Shown: positions 4,641 to 33,501 of the stretch, one piece after another
Position numbering within the stretch: position 1 is the stretch's first letter
Layout: the number at the start of each line of letters is the position of its first letter
DNA from: Bacillota bacterium
GTDB lineage: Bacteria; Bacillota; Clostridia; Peptostreptococcales; Anaerovoracaceae
Length of the DNA: 36,719 nucleotides
Reading direction: 5' to 3'
Assembly (NCBI GenBank): GCA_029008005.1
Contig: JAQXIX010000045.1
Coordinates: forward strand, 1 to 36,719
Program-made: the position numbers and the translations under genes
The notes under the pieces: generated by a model
The model's input: the letters and a program-made list of their open reading frames with translations, nothing else
Database searches by the model: none
Told to the model about the DNA's origin: nothing

Positions 4641-6470
4641 ATGTGCGGAATAGTTGGATATATTGGCACTGATCATGCTAAAGAAAAAATAATTGACGGA
4701 CTTAAACGACTGGAATACAGAGGATACGATTCGGCGGGAATAGCTCTGCCTATTAACGGCAGCATCGAAATCAGAAAAGCAGTCGGAGAAATAAAGAATC
4801 TCGAAAGTAAAATATCGGAAGCTGAATTCGATTCATCAGTAGGAATCGGACATACGAGATGGGCTACGCACGGTAAGCCGACAGAAGCTAATGCACATCC
4901 TCACGGAAATATGGAGCAGAACATAGCGATAGTCCACAACGGTATTATCGAGAATTATCAGGAAATCCGCGAATGGCTTGCGACAGAGTACGGCATCAAA
5001 TTCAAGTCGGAAACAGATTCGGAAGTAATAGCACATCTGATCGGACTTTACTATGACGGAGATCTTCTCGCTGCAGTAAACAAGGCAGTGGCAGAGATGA
5101 AAGGCGCATATGCCGTTGCTGCGATTGCAGCCGAAGAACCGGATAAAATAGTTGCCGTTCGTAAGGACGCACCCCTTGTAGCCGGAATAGGCAAGGGCTT
5201 TAACTTTATTGCATCGGATATTCCTGCAGTTCTGAAGTACGTTCAGGATGTGTACCTTATCGAGAACAATGAAACCGTTGTTCTGACAAAGGACAATATT
5301 GTTATATACGATGAAAACGGCAATACAGTAAAGAGAGATGTATATCCTGTAGAATGGAAGGCAGACGCGGCAGATAAGGCTGATTACGACCACTTCATGC
5401 TCAAAGAGATTCATGAGCAGCCGAAGGTTATCAGAGAGACCCTGATGAACAGACTTAACGAAGACGGCAGCATCAGACTTGACGATATCTCCATGACAAA
5501 GGAAGATATTGAGAATTTCAACAAAATATATATTGTAGCCTGCGGTACAGCGTACCACGCAGGACTTGTAGGCAAAATGGTAATTGAGCGTATGGCCAAG
5601 ATACCGGTGGAAATTGATGTTGCATCCGAATTCAGATACAGAGATACATTTATTGATGACAATACATTGTTTATTGCCATCTCCCAGTCAGGAGAAACAC
5701 TTGATACTCTTGAAGCTCTCAGAGATGCAAAATCCAGAGGAGCAAGAATACTGAGTGTTGTAAATGCAGTCGGAAGTTCGATAGCCAGAGAATCAGACGA
5801 TGTTTTCTATACACTGGCAGGACCTGAAATTGCAGTAGCATCAACAAAGGCATACACAACACAGCTTATCTGCATGTACCTGATCGGACTTTATATGGGA
5901 AGTACTAGGGGCACGATGGATAAGGAATACTATGACCGTGTTCTTGATGAACTGAAAGCACTTCCGGGAAAAGTTGAGAAAATCCTTTATTCAGAAGAAA
6001 AGATAAAGGATATGGCCAAGAGATATCACTTCAATGACCATGTATTCTTCATAGGAAGAGGACTAGACAGCGGAGTATCATATGAAGGATCACTCAAGCT
6101 GAAAGAAATATCATATATTCATTCATTCGCTATTGCTGCAGGAGAACTGAAACACGGAACAATTGCGCTGATGGATTCGGAGACACTTGTTGTGGCACTG
6201 GCTACACAGGATATCCTGTATGACAAGATGGTTTCCAATATTGAAGAAATCAGAGCCAGAGATGCACATGTTATCGGACTGGCGAAGGAAGGCCGCACGG
6301 AAGTCGAGAAGGTTTCGAATGAGGCTATATATATACCGGAATGTATCGATGAGGTTGCACCGGTTCTGGCAGTAATACCTTTACAGATTTTCGCATATTA
6401 TGTAGCTCTCGAAAGAGGATGCAGCATAGATAAGCCGAAGAATCTGGCAAAATCAGTTACAGTTGAATAA
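4641..6470 (+). CDS. glmS: Glutamine-fructose-6-phosphate aminotransferase (isomerising)
   Basis: GlmS makes glucosamine-6-phosphate from fructose-6-phosphate and glutamine, the entry step to UDP-GlcNAc. The 609-residue protein starts MCGIVGYIG, and Cys2 becomes the N-terminal nucleophile of the glutaminase domain (1-about 240). Two SIS sugar-isomerase domains follow (SQSGETLDTLEAL, and a C-terminal LAKSVTVE tail). The start has GGAGG seven bases upstream. Only ten bases separate it from glmM, so there is no room for a glmS ribozyme. Confidence 0.98.
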   Translation: MCGIVGYIGTDHAKEKIIDGLKRLEYRGYDSAGIALPINGSIEIRKAVGEIKNLESKISEAEFDSSVGIGHTRWATHGKPTEANAHPHGNMEQNIAIVHNGIIENYQEIREWLATEYGIKFKSETDSEVIAHLIGLYYDGDLLAAVNKAVAEMKGAYAVAAIAAEEPDKIVAVRKDAPLVAGIGKGFNFIASDIPAVLKYVQDVYLIENNETVVLTKDNIVIYDENGNTVKRDVYPVEWKADAADKADYDHFMLKEIHEQPKVIRETLMNRLNEDGSIRLDDISMTKEDIENFNKIYIVACGTAYHAGLVGKMVIERMAKIPVEIDVASEFRYRDTFIDDNTLFIAISQSGETLDTLEALRDAKSRGARILSVVNAVGSSIARESDDVFYTLAGPEIAVASTKAYTTQLICMYLIGLYMGSTRGTMDKEYYDRVLDELKALPGKVEKILYSEEKIKDMAKRYHFNDHVFFIGRGLDSGVSYEGSLKLKEISYIHSFAIAAGELKHGTIALMDSETLVVALATQDILYDKMVSNIEEIRARDAHVIGLAKEGRTEVEKVSNEAIYIPECIDEVAPVLAVIPLQIFAYYVALERGCSIDKPKNLAKSVTVE

Positions 6471-26660: not shown

Positions 26661-26718
26661 TTGACAATTGAATACACGCTCAACTATAATATTGACAAAC
26701 AATTGAATGCGCATTCAA
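26661..26718 (+). promoter_or_regulatory. Promoter and twin operators of the ArsR-P-type ATPase operon
   Basis: TTGACA (26661-26666) and TATAAT (26685-26690) are separated by 18 bases. Two related dyads overlap the promoter. TTGAATACACGCTCAA (26668-26683) sits between -35 and -10. The perfect palindrome TTGAATGCGCATTCAA (26703-26718) lies just after the predicted start point. Such TTGAA...TTCAA dyads are typical ArsR/SmtB operators, so autorepression released by metal is expected. Confidence 0.82.
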
Positions 26719-26739
26719 CTAAAGTATAAGGAAGTAAAG

Positions 26740-27150
26740 ATGAAAGAAAAAAACTTTAAAGGCTGTGATTGCTGGTGCAAGCACGAAGATGTTGTAAATG
26801 GTGTCAGACAAAGACTGCCGGAGGCAAAAAGCCTGGAGCAGATGACGGAAATATACAGAATTCTCGGTGACAGAACAAGGCTGAATATACTTGCGGCACT
26901 AAACTGCCACGAAATGTGCGTTGGAGATTTAGCCGTTCTGCTTGATATGAGTAAATCGGCAGTATCTCATCAGTTGAGAGTTCTTCGTGAAAACAAACTT
27001 GTCACAAACGAGCGCAACGGGAAAAACATATATTATTATCTGGCGGATAACCATGTTAAGGATATGCTTGATGTAGCGCTGGAGCATGTGTGTGAAAAGG
27101 GCTGCAATCACAATGAAAAAGTACATCATCACGAAATGAAAGGGGATTAA
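26740..27150 (+). CDS. ArsR/SmtB-family metal-responsive repressor (CadC/ZntR-like)
   Basis: The 136-residue winged-helix repressor has the recognition helix SKSAVSHQLRVLRENKLV (71-88). Possible metal ligands are Cys9, Cys11 and Cys13 at the N-terminus, Cys60 in CVGDLA, and a Cys/His-rich tail (HVCEKGCNHNEKVHHH). In CadC the motif is CVCDL; here the second Cys is Gly, so the metal site must differ. ATG 26740 has AAGGAAG upstream. The ATPase gene begins four bases after the stop. Cd, Zn or Pb is the likely inducer. Confidence 0.9.
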   Translation: MKEKNFKGCDCWCKHEDVVNGVRQRLPEAKSLEQMTEIYRILGDRTRLNILAALNCHEMCVGDLAVLLDMSKSAVSHQLRVLRENKLVTNERNGKNIYYYLADNHVKDMLDVALEHVCEKGCNHNEKVHHHEMKGD

Positions 27151-27154
27151 CAAT

Positions 27155-28915
27155 ATGCACGATCATCATCACGATCACGACCATGAACATGACAACTGCT
27201 GCTGCCATGACCATCATCATGAACACGACCACCGGGGCTGTGCCTGCTGCGAAGGTAAAACAGAGTACAAGCTTGACGGAGAAAAGGACAGGTCGGCAGG
27301 CAGTTTCGTGAAAGAACATAAGACAGACATAATTGCTCTGGCAGCAGGTGCGGTGCTGTTTGCTGCTGCCGTAATAGCAGAGCATATTGGGGTACATGGA
27401 GCAGCTGTATTTTCCGCAAGTGCGTTTGCTTACATTATCCTGGGAAGAGAGGTTCTTGTAAACACCTGGCATAACATCAGAAAAGGGCGGGTTTTCGATG
27501 AAAACTTTCTCATGACAGTAGCGACCCTTGCGGCCTTTTGCATTGGCGATTATCCGGAGGCAGCGGGGATAATGCTGTTCTACAGAATCGGAGAAATGTT
27601 TGAAGATGTTTCAGTCGAAAGGAGCCGTGCCAATATAGCGAAGGCCGTGGACATGAGACCGGAGACGGTATGTGTGCTTAATGGCGGAGAGGAAAAAGTA
27701 ATACCTGCGTCAGAGGCGCAGATAGGCGATATTCTCATTATCAAACCGGGAGAAAGGATTCCTCTGGACGGTGACATTATTTCCGGAAGCGGTCTTCTGG
27801 ACACTTCTTCGGTAACGGGCGAATCTGTGCCTGTAAAGGTTGCGAAGGGAGACAGCATATACTCGGGATGCGTCAATATGAGAGGCCAGCTTCAGCTTAA
27901 GGTAACAGCGGAGTTGGGAGAATCAATGGTATCGAGAATACTCGAGTCGGTTGAGAAGGCAGCGGAGACGAAGCCTCAAATCGACAAATTCATCACTAAA
28001 TTCGCTGCAGTATATACACCGATTGTTGTAATCTGTGCCGTAGCCGTTGCCATTATTCCACCTGTAATTACCATAGTGTCGGGAGAACATCCTTTATGGC
28101 AGCACTGGATCCTCACAGCCGTGACATTCCTTGTAATCAGCTGTCCTTGTGCCATGGTGATAAGTGTTCCGCTGGCGTATTTCCTTGGAATCGGACGAGC
28201 ATCGAGAGAAGGGATACTGTTCAAAAGCGGACTGGCACTTGAGGGACTCAGAAAAATCAAGGTTGCGGCTCTTGATAAAACAGGAACCATAACAAAGGGA
28301 ATCGTGGAAGACAGCGGTCTTCTGGATACAGAAGACAAGGGCGAAAGTTTTGAAGAAGCTTTTGCGAAAAAAACAGTTAAAGGCGATGAGCCGAAAGAAG
28401 ATGCAAAATCGGGAATCAGCAAAATCAGGAAGCTGGGAATTATTCCCGCAATGCTTACGGGAGACCGGATGGCACATGCTAAGGCTATAGGAGAAGCCGT
28501 GGGAATAAATGAACAGGATATCAGGGCAGAACTCCTGCCTGAGGACAAGCTGAATGCCCTTCTGGATTTGCGTGAAAAGCACGGACCTATTATGTTTGTA
28601 GGAGATGGAGTAAATGATGCTCCGGTACTTGCCGGAGCAGATGTAGGCGCAGCGATGGGCGAAGGTACCGATGCCGCAATAGAGGCAGCAGACATCGTAT
28701 TTATGAATTCAAATGTGGAGGCGATTTCCAGATCAGTTGAAATAGCCGGAAAGACAGGGAAAATCGCAGTTGAAAATATTGTGATTTCTCTTGGGATAAA
28801 GCTGGCGGTAATGGTGCTGGGACTTGCGGGATTGGCGAATATATGGTTTGCCGTTTTCGCAGATACGGGAGTAGCAATGCTTTGTATTCTGAATTCCCTG
28901 AGAATGATGAAATAA
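27155..28915 (+). CDS. Heavy-metal P1B-type ATPase lacking most of the nucleotide-binding domain
   Basis: The 586-residue protein resembles ZntA/CadA. It starts with a His/Cys-rich tail (about 16 His and 6 Cys within residues 2-32) instead of an HMA domain. The actuator TGES (221-224), the transport motif SCPCAM (329-334), the phosphorylated Asp374 in DKTGT, TGD (435-437) and VGDGVNDAP are intact. Only about 60 residues lie between DKTGT and TGD, against roughly 150 in ZntA. The N-domain with the HP dipeptide that holds ATP is missing, replaced by about 25 charged residues (384-410). The frame is intact. The ArsR partner suggests Zn/Cd/Pb export, but activity is doubtful as it stands. Confidence 0.85.
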   Translation: MHDHHHDHDHEHDNCCCHDHHHEHDHRGCACCEGKTEYKLDGEKDRSAGSFVKEHKTDIIALAAGAVLFAAAVIAEHIGVHGAAVFSASAFAYIILGREVLVNTWHNIRKGRVFDENFLMTVATLAAFCIGDYPEAAGIMLFYRIGEMFEDVSVERSRANIAKAVDMRPETVCVLNGGEEKVIPASEAQIGDILIIKPGERIPLDGDIISGSGLLDTSSVTGESVPVKVAKGDSIYSGCVNMRGQLQLKVTAELGESMVSRILESVEKAAETKPQIDKFITKFAAVYTPIVVICAVAVAIIPPVITIVSGEHPLWQHWILTAVTFLVISCPCAMVISVPLAYFLGIGRASREGILFKSGLALEGLRKIKVAALDKTGTITKGIVEDSGLLDTEDKGESFEEAFAKKTVKGDEPKEDAKSGISKIRKLGIIPAMLTGDRMAHAKAIGEAVGINEQDIRAELLPEDKLNALLDLREKHGPIMFVGDGVNDAPVLAGADVGAAMGEGTDAAIEAADIVFMNSNVEAISRSVEIAGKTGKIAVENIVISLGIKLAVMVLGLAGLANIWFAVFADTGVAMLCILNSLRMMK

Positions 28916-28984: not shown

Positions 28985-30130
28985 TCAGCAACTTTCGGAG
29001 TAGCATCCGAGGAAGTGGAATTCTTCGCATTCGTCAGCCAGACCGTCGAGCATGTGCAGTATTTCGTCAGAATAAACCGAGCCTTCGAAATCAAAGTAGA
29101 ACATGAAATTAAAGTCGCTGCCCGGTATAGGACGTGATTCAAGTTTAGTGATGTTAATGCCCAGCGCTGCAAATCTGGATAAAATATTGTAAAGTGCCGA
29201 TGGAATATGGGGCAGTGACAATATCAGACTGAATTTGTCGGAACCCGGATATACTTCCATATCCTTTGAGATACAGATGAATCGCGTGTAATTGTTTTCG
29301 TTGTTCTGAATATTTGTTTTCAGAGGTTCCAGACCATATATTCTCATGCAGTCTTCCGAGGAGATCGCAGCAACATCTTTTCTGTCACTTTCAGCTATCA
29401 TTCTGGCGGCAGCAGCTGTGTTTTCGTAATCAGTTATTTTCACATTCGGAAGAGCCTTCAGAAATTCGCTGCATTGTCCCAGAGCCTGAGGATGAGAGAA
29501 AATCTCTTTTATATCTTCCAGCCGGCTTCCCGGTTTTGCCAGAAGGCTGTGACTTACATGAAGCTTCAGCGTTTTGGTAATGTGGAAACTGAAATTTCTC
29601 ATAAGGTCGTAAACGGCCGTAACCGACCCGTAAGAGCTGTTTTCGATTGGAAGTACCCCATACCTGCAAAGCCCTTTTTCTACAGCGTTAAAAACGCCCT
29701 CAAAGCTATTAAAGTACATTATTTCAGGTCTGCGGAACAACTTCTCGGCAGCTGATTGCGAGAAGGAGCCTTCAGTTCCCTGGCATGCTACTGTTGCATT
29801 CTTCGGCATGATGTTATCTGTTTTTTTCATTGCTGCTTTAACAGATGCAGAAACAGTATCGGAATTGTTCATTCTAAGAATCTGATGAGCTTTGCTGATG
29901 TTAAAAATACTGCCGAAAAGCAGGGTTACGTACTCGTGATATTTTTCGGGAACTTTGCTGCACAGATTCAGTAAAATTTCCTTTTCTCGTCCCGGATGGT
30001 TCAGAGGAATGCCGGAAGCGGCTTTAACACGGGCAACCTCATCGGATACATCCATTCTCTGAACAAAAAGCTTTACCAGCTCATCGTCTATAGAATCTAT
30101 TTTTTTTCTTAAATCTTTAAGCTCTGTCAT
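28985..30130 (-). CDS. pheA: Bifunctional chorismate mutase / prephenate dehydratase
   Basis: The 381-residue enzyme makes phenylpyruvate from chorismate. A chorismate mutase type II domain (about 1-90, LRKKIDSIDDELVKLFVQRM) is followed by a prephenate dehydratase domain (about 110-290, CQGTEGSFSQSAAEKLF, PIENSSYGSV) and an ACT domain with the Phe-binding ESRP in LESRPIPGSDFNF. Feedback inhibition by Phe is expected from the ACT domain. It is the last gene of the aro operon, 13 bases after aroA, behind GGAGTTAAAC. Confidence 0.96.
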   Translation of the reverse strand: MTELKDLRKKIDSIDDELVKLFVQRMDVSDEVARVKAASGIPLNHPGREKEILLNLCSKVPEKYHEYVTLLFGSIFNISKAHQILRMNNSDTVSASVKAAMKKTDNIMPKNATVACQGTEGSFSQSAAEKLFRRPEIMYFNSFEGVFNAVEKGLCRYGVLPIENSSYGSVTAVYDLMRNFSFHITKTLKLHVSHSLLAKPGSRLEDIKEIFSHPQALGQCSEFLKALPNVKITDYENTAAAARMIAESDRKDVAAISSEDCMRIYGLEPLKTNIQNNENNYTRFICISKDMEVYPGSDKFSLILSLPHIPSALYNILSRFAALGINITKLESRPIPGSDFNFMFYFDFEGSVYSDEILHMLDGLADECEEFHFLGCYSESC

Positions 30131-30143
30131 GTTTAACTCCTAT

Positions 30144-31400
30144 TTATTCCTCTGTATCGCATATTCCTCCAAGAGATGCGAAATCTCTGAAGAACTCAGG
30201 ATACGATTTGTTCACGGCTTCTGAGCGGTCTATGGTAACGGTATTATCGCAAAGGCACGAGGCAACAGCAGCCGCCATAGCGATGCGATGATCGTTAAAG
30301 CTGTTTACAGTGCCGCCCTCAAGCTTGGAATTACCGCGAATTGTCATGGTGCTTTCATTGCTTGTAATCTGTCCGCCGAGTGAATTAATCATCTGGCTTA
30401 CAGAAGCGACTCTGTCTGATTCCTTAATCCTCAGCCTTTCAATACCGCTGACAGACGATTGACTGTCTGCGGCAGTCAGAAGAACCGATAGAGGCGGAAC
30501 GATATCCGGCATCTGTGAAACATTGCAGTCAATGCCGTGAAGCAGGCTGCCTTTCACGCGGATGGAAACAAGGCTTCCGTAAAGTTCCGTTATCTCAATC
30601 AGTGCGCCGGCTTTATCAAGAAGCCGGAGTATCGCTTTATCAGGCTGCGCAGATCTGAGATTAAGACCTTTGCATGTTATATCGCCGCCTAAAGCTCCGC
30701 AAACAAGCCAGAATGCCGAGTTGGACCAGTCACCTTCGACAACAGGGGAATCCGGCTCTGCGTATTGCTGGTTGCCCGGAATCGAGAAAGAAACCGGTCC
30801 CGAAGCGTCACTGCATACTTCCACATTTATTCCAAAGGCTTCGAGAACATCGAGTGTCATGTTTACATAGCCTGCGGATTCAAGAGGTGTGGTAAGCCGA
30901 ATTGTACTGTTTTCGTTTAACAGGGGAAGTGCGAAGAGCAGTCCCGTGATATATTGAGAACTTACATTGCCGGGCAGTGTGAAATCACCGGGCTGAAGTC
31001 TGCCTGTCACCTTAAAGATAATATCGTCACTGTCTTTTGAAAAACAGCATCCTTTCTGAATCATTTCTTCTTTAAGAGGTGAAACGGGTCGGGATGGAAG
31101 CTTGCCTCTGCCTGTAAATGTCGCTTCATCTGTCACAGCCATGGCGACGGGAAGAAGGAATCTCAAAGTTGATCCGCTTTCGCCGCAGTCCAGAAGGGGA
31201 CACTCTCGCGTAAGCTCGTCAAGACAGCCCTTAGTTGCTGCGATGTCATCTGAAAATGACGGGATTTCACAGGTGTTACTGTTTCCGTTTCCCTGCAGGC
31301 GGGCCAGCGCCTGTGCAATCAGCAGCCTGTGGGCATGGGATTTTGACGGCATTGCGTTGATTTCGCCTTTTAGTTTTGCTGGAGTAATTACAGTCTTCAT
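30144..31400 (-). CDS. aroA: 3-phosphoshikimate 1-carboxyvinyltransferase (EPSP synthase)
   Basis: The 418-residue enzyme joins shikimate-3-phosphate and PEP, the sixth shikimate step. It has the N-terminal KSHAHRLLIAQAL, LDCGESGSTLRFLLP (phosphate binding), RIKESDRVASV and FNDHRIAMAAAVA. It lies four bases after the tyrA stop in the operon. aroB, aroC, aroE and aroK are not in this window. Confidence 0.96.
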   Translation of the reverse strand: MKTVITPAKLKGEINAMPSKSHAHRLLIAQALARLQGNGNSNTCEIPSFSDDIAATKGCLDELTRECPLLDCGESGSTLRFLLPVAMAVTDEATFTGRGKLPSRPVSPLKEEMIQKGCCFSKDSDDIIFKVTGRLQPGDFTLPGNVSSQYITGLLFALPLLNENSTIRLTTPLESAGYVNMTLDVLEAFGINVEVCSDASGPVSFSIPGNQQYAEPDSPVVEGDWSNSAFWLVCGALGGDITCKGLNLRSAQPDKAILRLLDKAGALIEITELYGSLVSIRVKGSLLHGIDCNVSQMPDIVPPLSVLLTAADSQSSVSGIERLRIKESDRVASVSQMINSLGGQITSNESTMTIRGNSKLEGGTVNSFNDHRIAMAAAVASCLCDNTVTIDRSEAVNKSYPEFFRDFASLGGICDTEE

Positions 31401-31404
31401 AGTC

Positions 31405-32244
31405 TTAGAAAAGTTCTCCGTCTATACATTCTTTGGCTTTTCGGCCATCATAAAGCAGTTGTTTAAGTTCGTCGGAATCTCCTTGTGAGATTGCATCTCT
31501 GTATTTTGTAAGATTTCCGATAAGAGTGTCGATTTCTTTCAGAAGATTATCTGAGTTCTCGAGGAAAAGCTCTGTCCACATTGTTTCATTAAGTTTGGCA
31601 ACTCTCGTAAGGTCAAGGTAGCTGCCTGCTGAGAAACCATCGTGTTCCATGGCTGTAGGACTCTTTATGTACGCATTTGAAACAACATGAGCCAGCTGAG
31701 ACGTGAAGGCGATTCTTCTGTCATGTTCGGCCGGTGATGATATTTCTATGTGGCTGAAGCCGATATCCGTAAAGAGCTTTTTCAGGGTCTCAAGCTTTTG
31801 GATAGGGCATGAGGAAGCCATGAGAATCATTGAACCTCCGTTAAAAAGTGTTGCATCTGCATTATCGAATCCGGAGTGCTCAAGGCCGGCCATAGGGTGA
31901 CCGCCGATAAAGGTAAAGCCTTTTTCCTCTGCAATAGGCGCTATGCGGCTGCAGACACATTCCTTAACACCGCCGCAGTCGATTACAACAGTCTCGGGGC
32001 TGATTTTATCGGCGTTGGCTTCGATGAAATCTATGGATGCCTGCGGGTACAGAGCGATTATTATCAGGTCGCATTCCGACAGGTCATCTGTTTCAAGGGG
32101 TTTTTCGATTGCTTTAATGAGAAGCGCTTTTCTTACTGCCTGATTATCTATGTCGTAGCCTGATACGGTGTGATCGGTATTGTAGCTTATGGCTTTTGCC
32201 ATTGAGCCTCCAATGAGACCCAGTCCTATTATTCCTATATTCAT
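31405..32244 (-). CDS. tyrA: Prephenate dehydrogenase
   Basis: The 279-residue enzyme oxidatively decarboxylates prephenate to 4-hydroxyphenylpyruvate for Tyr. The N-terminal Rossmann motif is GLGLIGGSMAKAI, and GGHPMAGLEHSG and HDRRIAFTSQLAHV mark the active site. It has no ACT domain, so allosteric Tyr control probably acts elsewhere, for example on AroF. The start overlaps the aroF stop by one base. Confidence 0.95.
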   Translation of the reverse strand: MNIGIIGLGLIGGSMAKAISYNTDHTVSGYDIDNQAVRKALLIKAIEKPLETDDLSECDLIIIALYPQASIDFIEANADKISPETVVIDCGGVKECVCSRIAPIAEEKGFTFIGGHPMAGLEHSGFDNADATLFNGGSMILMASSCPIQKLETLKKLFTDIGFSHIEISSPAEHDRRIAFTSQLAHVVSNAYIKSPTAMEHDGFSAGSYLDLTRVAKLNETMWTELFLENSDNLLKEIDTLIGNLTKYRDAISQGDSDELKQLLYDGRKAKECIDGELF

Positions 32245-33269
32245 TAGAATCCTCCGTTGTTTCCGGCGAAGGCCAGAGGTCTGATTGCTTTAACTGACTG
32301 CATTACATCGTCGAAATCCTCCGGTGTAAGTGACTGAGGTCCGTCGCAAAGTGCCTGAGACGGATTATTGTGTACTTCGATCATAAGACCGTCTGCTCCG
32401 GCAGCTGTTGCAGCCATTGCCATTGGTTTTACAAGTGAAGCGATTCCTGTAGCATGACTCGGGTCAACGATTACAGGAAGATGTGTTTTTTCCTTAAGCA
32501 AAGGAACACACGCCAGGTCAAGAGTATTTCTCATGGCTGTTTCGAAGGTTCTGATTCCTCTTTCGCAGAGAATTACTTTCTGGTTGCCTCCTGCCATAAT
32601 GTATTCAGCACTCATGAGAAGTTCCTGAAGAGTACTTGAAAGACCCCTCTTAAGGAGAATAGGCTTATCGAGCTTTCCAAGTTCCTTGAGGAGTTCGAAA
32701 TTCTGCATGTTTCTGGCACCGACCTGAATAACGTCAACGTTTTCAAAGAGCGGAAGGTGTGAAATGTCCATGACCTCAGTTACAATCGGAAGGCCTGATT
32801 TTTCTTTGGCTTCGGAAAGCAGTCTTATTCCTTCGCTTCTCATACCCTGGAACGCGTAAGGAGAAGTTCTCGGTTTAAATGCACCGCCTCTGTAAAGTCC
32901 TGCTCCTGAGGCTTTTACTGATTCTGCAACTGAGCAGATCTGTTCCTCCGATTCAACTGAGCATGGTCCGGCGATTACCTGAAAATTGCCTCCGCCGATT
33001 TTTATTCCCGGTGCGATTTCAATTACTGTATCGTCAGGATGGAATTTGCGGCTGGCGCTTTTGTATGGTTCCTGAACTCGTTTAACGTCTTCAACGATAT
33101 CAAGAGCATTGATCAAATCGATATCAACCGATGCTGTATCGCCGACAAGTCCCATTATTGTTTTCGTCGAACCTTCTGTGAAATGGATGTCGATATTCAT
33201 GCCTTTAAGCCATGAAATAAGATTATCGAGCTGTTTTTTCTCCGGATTGCTTTTAAGTATTACTATCAT
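32244..33269 (-). CDS. aroF: 3-deoxy-7-phosphoheptulonate (DAHP) synthase, type I-beta with regulatory N-domain
   Basis: The enzyme condenses PEP and erythrose-4-phosphate, the first step to all aromatic amino acids. The 341 residues comprise an N-terminal ferredoxin-like domain (1-about 75), which in Thermotoga-type enzymes mediates Tyr/Phe inhibition, and the barrel with [41 protein letters not shown] and DPSHATG. The start is ATG 33269, behind AAGGAGAGAAAA. An upstream in-frame extension to 33425 runs through the attenuator and is not the gene. It is the first structural gene of the operon. Confidence 0.96.
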
Positions 33270-33284: not shown

Positions 33285-33321
33285 AATAAAAAGTGCTCCG
33301 CAGGGTGGTGTCTGCGGAGCA
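33285..33321 (-). terminator. Attenuator terminator in the aroF leader
   Basis: On the minus strand TGCTCCGCAG (33321-33312) pairs perfectly with CTGCGGAGCA (33303-33294) around an eight-base loop, followed by CTTTTTATT. It lies between a Phe/Tyr-rich leader peptide and aroF. Confidence 0.92.
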
Positions 33322-33426
33322 ATGATAAGTCTGTGGCATATTATGAATATCCTTATTTCTTTCGCAGCAAAACACCCTCTACAATCTAAAGTTCGTAAAG
33401 TAAAAAAAGTAATATTCAGCTGCAAA
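33307..33426 (-). promoter_or_regulatory. Phe/Tyr transcription attenuator: protector and antiterminator segments
   Basis: Four segments alternate as in classical attenuators. Segment 1, UUUGCAGC (33426-33419), lies inside the leader peptide gene and pairs with segment 2', GCUGCGAA (33368-33361), by 8 bp with one G-U. Segment 2, GGUGU (33376-33372) plus CUGCG (33367-33363), pairs with segment 3, CGCAGACACC (33316-33307), over 10 bp with a four-base bulge. Segment 3 overlaps the 5' arm of the terminator. Segment 2 begins two bases after the leader stop codon, so a ribosome ending there would mask it and let the terminator form. A ribosome stalled on Phe or Tyr codons would free it to antiterminate. 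Confidence 0.87.
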
Positions 33427-33441
33427 AAATTTAGTTGCCAT
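33379..33441 (-). CDS. Phe/Tyr-rich leader peptide of the aroF-tyrA-aroA-pheA operon
   Basis: This 20-codon ORF starts at ATG 33441, has AAAGGA eight bases upstream and stops at TAG 33381-33379. Phe occupies positions 5, 6, 12, 13, 15 and 18, and Tyr positions 10, 11 and 14, so nine of 20 codons specify the two end products of the operon. The densest block is YYFFYF (10-15). It lies between the operon promoter and the attenuator hairpins. Its role is to report charged tRNA-Phe and tRNA-Tyr through ribosome speed; the peptide itself probably has no function. Confidence 0.9.
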   Translation of the reverse strand: MATKFFAAEYYFFYFTNFRL

Positions 33442-33472
33442 AGTACTGTCCTTTAATGATTTATTTTTATTT

Positions 33473-33501
33473 ATTCTAACATGTGAAAATACGAATGTAA
33501 A
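33473..33501 (-). promoter_or_regulatory. Promoter of the aro operon
   Basis: On the minus strand TTTACA (33501-33496) and TAGAAT (33478-33473) are separated by 17 bases. Transcription would start near 33466, about 25 bases before the leader peptide, and give a leader of nearly 200 bases. Confidence 0.75.

Follow-up and report, generated by a model that had tools for sequence, protein, structure and literature searches.

In Firmicutes, the control of amino-acid genes tends to be described in terms of T-boxes, and the question raised by this locus is how an operon for phenylalanine and tyrosine synthesis is controlled when no such element precedes it. The window, by which we mean the whole 36,719-nucleotide stretch analysed (contig JAQXIX010000045.1, from a Bacillota bacterium of the Anaerovoracaceae), had been read in an initial annotation as carrying a clostridial four-segment attenuator with a leader peptide and no T-box. 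Rfam agrees on the latter point, with neither a T-box (RF00230) nor any other family above cut-off at the window locus, and the clostridial label is correct. Elsewhere, the window's genome has four T-box matches, one of them above the Rfam cut-off, followed by a symporter-family gene, an ileS gene, and genes for a TrpB-like protein and for 2-isopropylmalate synthase. Given T-boxes elsewhere and a leader peptide at the aro operon, a T-box-using genome thus appears to read phenylalanine and tyrosine synthesis via a leader peptide. Relatives, structure tests, and the match between codons and genes all support the four-segment reading, and we consider it very probable that the leader is a ribosome-mediated (leader-peptide) transcription attenuator sensing the charging of tRNA-Phe and tRNA-Tyr.

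The leader and its alternative helices

The leader and the operon behind it consist of the following features (positions in the window):

33473..33501, minus strand: promoter, with TTTACA at 33501-33496, TG at 33481-33480, and TAGAAT at 33478-33473; motif present in 11 of 11 leaders
33449..33452, minus strand: Shine-Dalgarno sequence AGGA of the leader ORF, by sequence reading; relatives show a similar site
33379..33441, minus strand: leader ORF MATKFFAAEYYFFYFTNFRL with its stop codon, maintained in relatives
33413..33429, minus strand: segment 1, the protector, partner of segment 2, by folding and family covariation
33362..33378, minus strand: segment 2, the antiterminator strand; 1:2 pairing extends to 33357
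33301..33317, minus strand: segment 3, partner of segment 2, or 5' arm and loop of the terminator
33294..33321, minus strand: intrinsic terminator 3:4, 10 bp, then CTTTTTATT
32244..33269, minus strand: aroF, 3-deoxy-7-phosphoheptulonate synthase (DAHP synthase), downstream of the leader
31405..32244, minus strand: tyrA, prephenate dehydrogenase, aro operon
30144..31400, minus strand: aroA, EPSP synthase, aro operon
28985..30130, minus strand: pheA, chorismate mutase-prephenate dehydratase, aro operon

All the parts named in the initial annotation (promoter, 20-codon ORF, protector, antiterminator, and perfect terminator with U-run) are found on the minus strand, and the four genes behind them serve phenylalanine and tyrosine synthesis, as it had stated. 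The ORF MATKFFAAEYYFFYFTNFRL has six Phe and three Tyr codons (9/20 aromatic), and an ATG ORF that is similarly rich in them arose in two of 5000 dinucleotide shuffles of 33285-33501. Throughout the window, no other ORF of 12-40 codons on the minus strand reaches 40% Phe and Tyr; the plus strand has one such ORF, of 12 codons. The promoter is laid out as TTTACA-N17-TAGAAT with a TG ahead of the -10 element, a pattern that by itself occurs at chance level as a scan (4 sites versus 3.7 expected), and TTTACA-N15-TG-N-TANNNT is present in all eleven window-type leaders, namely that of the window and those of ten same-genus relatives. The terminator has ten perfect pairs directly followed by the U-run CTTTTTATT, and 0.6 such terminators are expected per shuffled region. 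On the plus strand, an ArsR-family regulator gene is followed by a gene for a cadmium/zinc-type P-type ATPase (26707-28915); the pair runs towards the 3' end of the aro operon, in convergent orientation.

The ten relatives are the best places besides the window in a search with the leader DNA across 49 same-genus genomes (L075-L084). Promoter motif, ORF, and terminator are present in all ten and aroF is always the next gene, at a distance of ~200-300 bases from the terminator in L077 and L083. Their ORF approximates MLNRxFAAEYFYFYFTFFRGKVNFAAxR and continues through segment 2, with the stop codon behind it. In the alignment of the eleven leaders (A2), the window carries one additional base at column 58 (window 33386-33384), which places a TAG in frame ahead of segment 2; this base may be genuine or may be an assembly error. 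The statement that segment 2 begins two bases after the leader stop thus describes the window and does not extend to its relatives, and a ribosome at the leader stop would be expected to cover segment 2 with either stop position.

The window leader RNA is more stable than every one of its 200 shuffles (z -4.65), and its best fold holds protector 1:2 and terminator 3:4 together. Its 1:2 pairing has an energy of -16.8 kcal/mol (z -3.0) and its 2:3 pairing one of -19.8 kcal/mol (z -1.7, the weakest z among the eleven leaders). Terminator and both alternative helices are found in all eleven, with 2:3 energies of -18.5 to -27.1 kcal/mol (z < -2 in 10/11) and 1:2 energies of -13.9 to -19.7 kcal/mol (z < -2 in 9/11). 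When segment 4 is still unmade, 2:3 is part of the best fold in ten leaders including that of the window, the exception being L079. Once segment 4 is present, the window favours the terminator over 2:3, so the choice between them must be kinetic, as it is in classical attenuators. Among 23 scored leaders from other genera or species, 14 have a 2:3 helix with z < -2; at L238 the terminator finder detected no terminator. For window-type leaders, cognate 2:3 duplexes were no better than non-cognate ones when the terminator 3' arm was cut off (-10.6 versus -10.1 kcal/mol; the cognate duplex led or tied in two of eleven columns), and the 2:3 energies were recomputed with the whole terminator and without the non-cognate control.

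Covariation had been proposed as a check on the four segments, and it upholds the terminator and, in the family set, the protector, with a weak outcome for 2:3. Across the eleven leaders, 89.8% of terminator cells are paired and 7 of 13 pairs change on two sides, which none of 500 shuffles matched. For antiterminator 2:3, 88.3% of cells are paired, a value reached by one of 500 shuffles (slid versions give 30-53%); only two of its pairs change on two sides, which 255 of 500 shuffles equalled. Protector 1:2 is 99.1% paired and invariant in the genus, so that covariation is uninformative there. In an alignment of 36 family leaders (A4), two-sided changes occur in 4 of 7 main 1:2 pairs and 9 of 9 terminator pairs, and none of 500 shuffles reached the covariation of the whole structure, with the qualification that A4 was fitted to model R2 of the window-type leader and hence leans towards the structure. 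RNAalifold on A4 likewise predicts the protector helix and the terminator.

Distribution of two leader families

Matches to R2 occur in 74 of the 247 genomes of the window's family and in 30 of 92 genera, at 82 places (78 sense and 4 antisense). The four antisense rows, which are echoes of the palindromic terminator, were dropped, as were the rows of three sense places without a leader ORF (L295-L297, E 0.002-0.009). The initial annotation had named relatives that keep the hairpin and lose the aromatic codons as the observation that would speak against it; this is not what we find, as 71 of the 78 sense places have at least six aromatic codons in the leader ORF, and four have three to five (L250, L257, L277, and L287). 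The same ORF-picking rule on shuffled regions gave a mean of 8.3 and a maximum of 17 of 78 in 20 rounds, and R2 was built including the aromatic run, which biases it towards aromatic matches. At the 75 remaining places, the next gene is aroF in 66 (of 73 with a gene within reach), pheA in two (L231 and L250), a tyrosine-phenol-lyase-like gene in four, and a symporter gene in one (L290), and it is out of reach in two (L219 and L252).

A sample chosen by aroF alone comprised 30 aroF places, window included, of which three were unreadable (two at contig ends, one masked). Aromatic leaders were present at 18 of the 27 readable places, 12 before aroF and 6 before a pheA gene heading the operon. The other nine are without an aromatic leader, and neither R1 nor R2 matches the DNA around them; in these nine the aroF match lacks the first part of the window's protein, starting at its residue 60-88, so that the enzymes are shorter.

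R1 is the model of a sister family, which we call SAG leaders. In six genomes of the window's genus (G001, G004, G010, G011, G016, and G018), TAAYFGFTFQGYYFSAGSLCC-like leaders precede pheA-aroF-tyrA-aroA, and in other families of the order, FYFSWGYFYFSAGYLFYKK-like leaders stand ahead of aroF. Their core is a hairpin within the ORF, P2, whose loop holds two to five Phe/Tyr codons and in whose stem the third position of the Ala codon tracks the middle base of the opposite Gln, Trp, or Leu codon (AU, GU, GC, and UA; 1/16 broken). P2 pairing is 99.1% versus 94.0%, with percentage and score exceeding 500 of 500 shuffles; its counts of two-sided changes are unexceptional, being equalled by 202 and 104 of 500 shuffles. 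A protector 1:2 was also considered for these leaders and is clear in L010, L028, and L103, but it is not claimed for the family because z < -2 holds in just 22 of 90 (one value undefined).

In the order, R1 has matches in 97 of 297 genomes (58 of 135 genera), and the next gene at the 30 loci examined is aroF in 24, pheA in 4, and a shikimate-kinase-like gene in 1, with none in the last. Across the phylum, 13 of 398 genomes have R1 matches at 14 places (13 before aroF and one before an unnamed ORF). Within the window's genus, R1 is found in 7 of 41 genomes, and it has no match in the window's own genome. When named genomes were scanned with a sequence pattern, 102 stretches matched, and 80 were examined as loci; aromatic leaders were seen by eye at 75, and five were judged non-leaders (L140, L141, L143, L154, and L163). 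The genera include Clostridium, Romboutsia, Intestinibacter, Terrisporobacter, Sedimentibacter, Alkaliphilus, Trichococcus, and others, with Tepidibacillus, Caldibacillus, Lucifera, Megasphaera, Clostridioides difficile, and Clostridium beijerinckii among the further taxa. The 69 pattern loci with a gene in reach precede aroF (56), pheA (3), tyrA (1), aroB (3), aroE (1), aroK (1), LarA-like genes (3), and a symporter gene (1). Because the pattern fixes the Trp-Gly/Ser-xxx-Ser-Ala-Gly/Ser codons, their conservation in this set is no proof; what is evidential are the aromatic codons around the fixed ones and the downstream genes. The R1, pattern-scan, and aroF-only sets overlap one another.

Like the window leader, SAG leaders combine an aromatic ORF and a terminator with aro genes, also in the window's genus (before pheA-aroF-tyrA-aroA); they differ in hairpin P2 and the Ser-Ala-Gly codons, both absent from the window leader. 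Leaders of both families begin Ala-Ala-(Glu)-Tyr, and both are found in that genus. We regard R1 and R2 as related-looking families, a likeness by description that does not imply common descent. Rfam run on twelve leader-bearing loci gave a single match, a T-box downstream of the aroF start in L028; this T-box (L028:2573-2832) lies directly behind aroF, and the same aroF has a SAG leader in front. Overall, two leader-peptide attenuator families without an Rfam match as leaders at the scanned loci precede aro genes across clostridia, and the idea that such leader peptides are exceptional in Gram-positive bacteria does not fit R1 and R2 leaders in many clostridia and some other Bacillota.

Proposed mechanism and competing explanations

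What the DNA itself shows are the parts and their conservation, the two alternative pairings, the terminator and protector covariation, and the agreement of codons with genes. These include what is looked for in an attenuator: a short ORF rich in codons that match the operon (9/20 codons; 71/78 places), with predicted translation; an intrinsic terminator that separates the leader from aroF; an antiterminator that excludes the terminator, with weak covariation; and a protector helix within or overlapping the ORF. From them we infer the start site, stalling, the ribosome footprint, termination in the cell, and the response to phenylalanine and tyrosine. With both tRNAs charged, the ribosome would reach the leader stop and cover segment 2, and terminator 3:4 would form ahead of aroF. 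If phenylalanine or tyrosine were short, the ribosome would pause on the Tyr-Tyr-Phe-Phe-Tyr-Phe run, covering segment 1 and freeing segment 2, which could then form 2:3 before segment 4 exists and let transcription proceed into aroF-tyrA-aroA-pheA. If the leader were not translated, 1:2 would form and 3:4 would terminate.

A different possibility is that the peptide itself is the sensor, with nascent FAAEYFYFYFT detecting free phenylalanine or tyrosine in the ribosome and stalling on abundance, as TnaC stalls with abundant tryptophan. The peptide is strongly kept within the genus, and induction by excess tyrosine would suit the four lyase genes better than induction by shortage. However, Phe and Tyr interchange freely in the run, the hairpin loop of the sister family varies from two to five aromatic codons, and read-through on excess would have the wrong sign for a synthesis operon, and we consider such an arrest peptide improbable. 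Less probable still is a T-box or other RNA-only riboswitch with an incidental short ORF: although T-boxes serve other genes of the window's genome, and aromatic-linked elements in Lactobacillales have been interpreted as riboswitches (PMC4448216), the window locus has no Rfam match, aromatic codons are present at 71 of the 78 sense R2 places, and promoter, start, and stop are all conserved. We give the lowest probability of all, a very small one, to the ORF being a small protein in its own right or the hairpin merely a leaky terminator. The ~200-300 bases from terminator to aroF in L077 and L083 would agree with this, as would the result that none of four leader peptides scored above cut-off in NCBIfam or Pfam, whereas the peptide varies in length and tail, and the mutually exclusive helices and their placement before aro genes would be left unexplained.

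Ribosome-mediated attenuation is classical in enterobacteria, with leader peptides at pheA (pheL), pheST (pheM), and trp. The window leader shares with these systems a codon-rich leader, a protector, an antiterminator, a terminator, and genes for the same amino acids, a likeness in features and not in sequence; it differs in belonging to another phylum, in reading phenylalanine and tyrosine jointly before aroF-tyrA-aroA-pheA, and, in the ten relatives of the window, in an ORF that itself spans segment 2. The mechanism class has precedents in Bacillota for other amino acids and genes, namely leader-peptide attenuators with Leu codons at ilv of Staphylococcus aureus (PMC5794164) and with His codons at hisZ/hisS* of bacilli (PMC2965389). 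The nearest in gene context is the uORFC-13-1 motif, which is reported to precede aroF in Acholeplasma and environmental DNA only (24 sequences) and has a short ORF with at least one Phe codon, a promoter, and a terminator, with attenuation proposed (Brewer et al. 2021, PMC8632094); these features are shared with the window leader, the two being compared by description only. The T-box is likewise a tRNA-charging sensor of Bacillota and usual for amino-acid genes, for example at a tyrosine operon in the B. cereus group (PMC2494555); it has no match at the window locus. In the open-licence literature we found no description of the R1 and R2 families, and one elsewhere is possible. What is new are the leader families and their spread; the principle, classical ribosome-mediated attenuation, is already known.

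Leaders ahead of other genes

The codons of a leader forecast what the downstream genes respond to, and the genes for which such a forecast can be made include those for a lyase, for a LarA-like racemase, and for a symporter. The four R2 leaders before a tyrosine-phenol-lyase-like gene (L232, L251, L259, and L291, in genomes G281, G267, G218, and G277) all belong to genus g26. They are four-segment leaders with five to six consecutive Tyr codons and zero to two Phe codons, compared with medians of five Phe and four Tyr in a set of 27 R2 leaders; the aroF leaders L226, L236, and L270 likewise contain a run of five Tyr, plus Phe. The best solved relatives of the g26 enzyme are tyrosine phenol-lyases, with tryptophanases second; it is above the cut-off of the NCBIfam subfamily model for tryptophanase and below that for tyrosine phenol-lyase (441 of 720.7 bits). 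In the four g26 genomes (94-96% complete), a search confined to relatives of the window's aroF and tyrA detected neither, an empty result that is weak on its own. A starvation switch ahead of a tyrosine-degrading enzyme would be odd, and either synthesis from phenol or induction by excess could account for it. As a speculative and rather doubtful extension, the leaders might form an undescribed aromatic-attenuator superfamily of clostridia and some other Bacillota with codons tuned to the gene, in which the Tyr-only g26 leaders would run the lyase in reverse, from phenol to tyrosine, when tyrosine is short.

In Intestinibacter and a close MAG, SAG leaders precede a LarA-like nickel-dependent 2-hydroxyacid racemase gene (L156:2348-3616 on the minus strand, L139, and L153; assigned by scan in L156 and from their letters in the other two), a hint that the substrate may be an aromatic 2-hydroxy acid. 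In an Anaerosolibacter MAG, a SAG leader stands before a sodium:solute symporter family gene (L099, core at oriented position 5152). In L032, an IS200/IS605-like transposase gene, recognised by eye, lies at ~1175-1710 and separates pheA from the aromatic leader and terminator ahead of it. Within the window's genus, the symporters at L246 (G000 C41, the window's genome) and L290 (G004 C12) are 63% identical, the former with a T-box upstream and the latter with an aromatic leader, where the R2 match is weak (E 0.0006); one gene is thus preceded by a T-box in one species of the genus and by an aromatic leader in a second.
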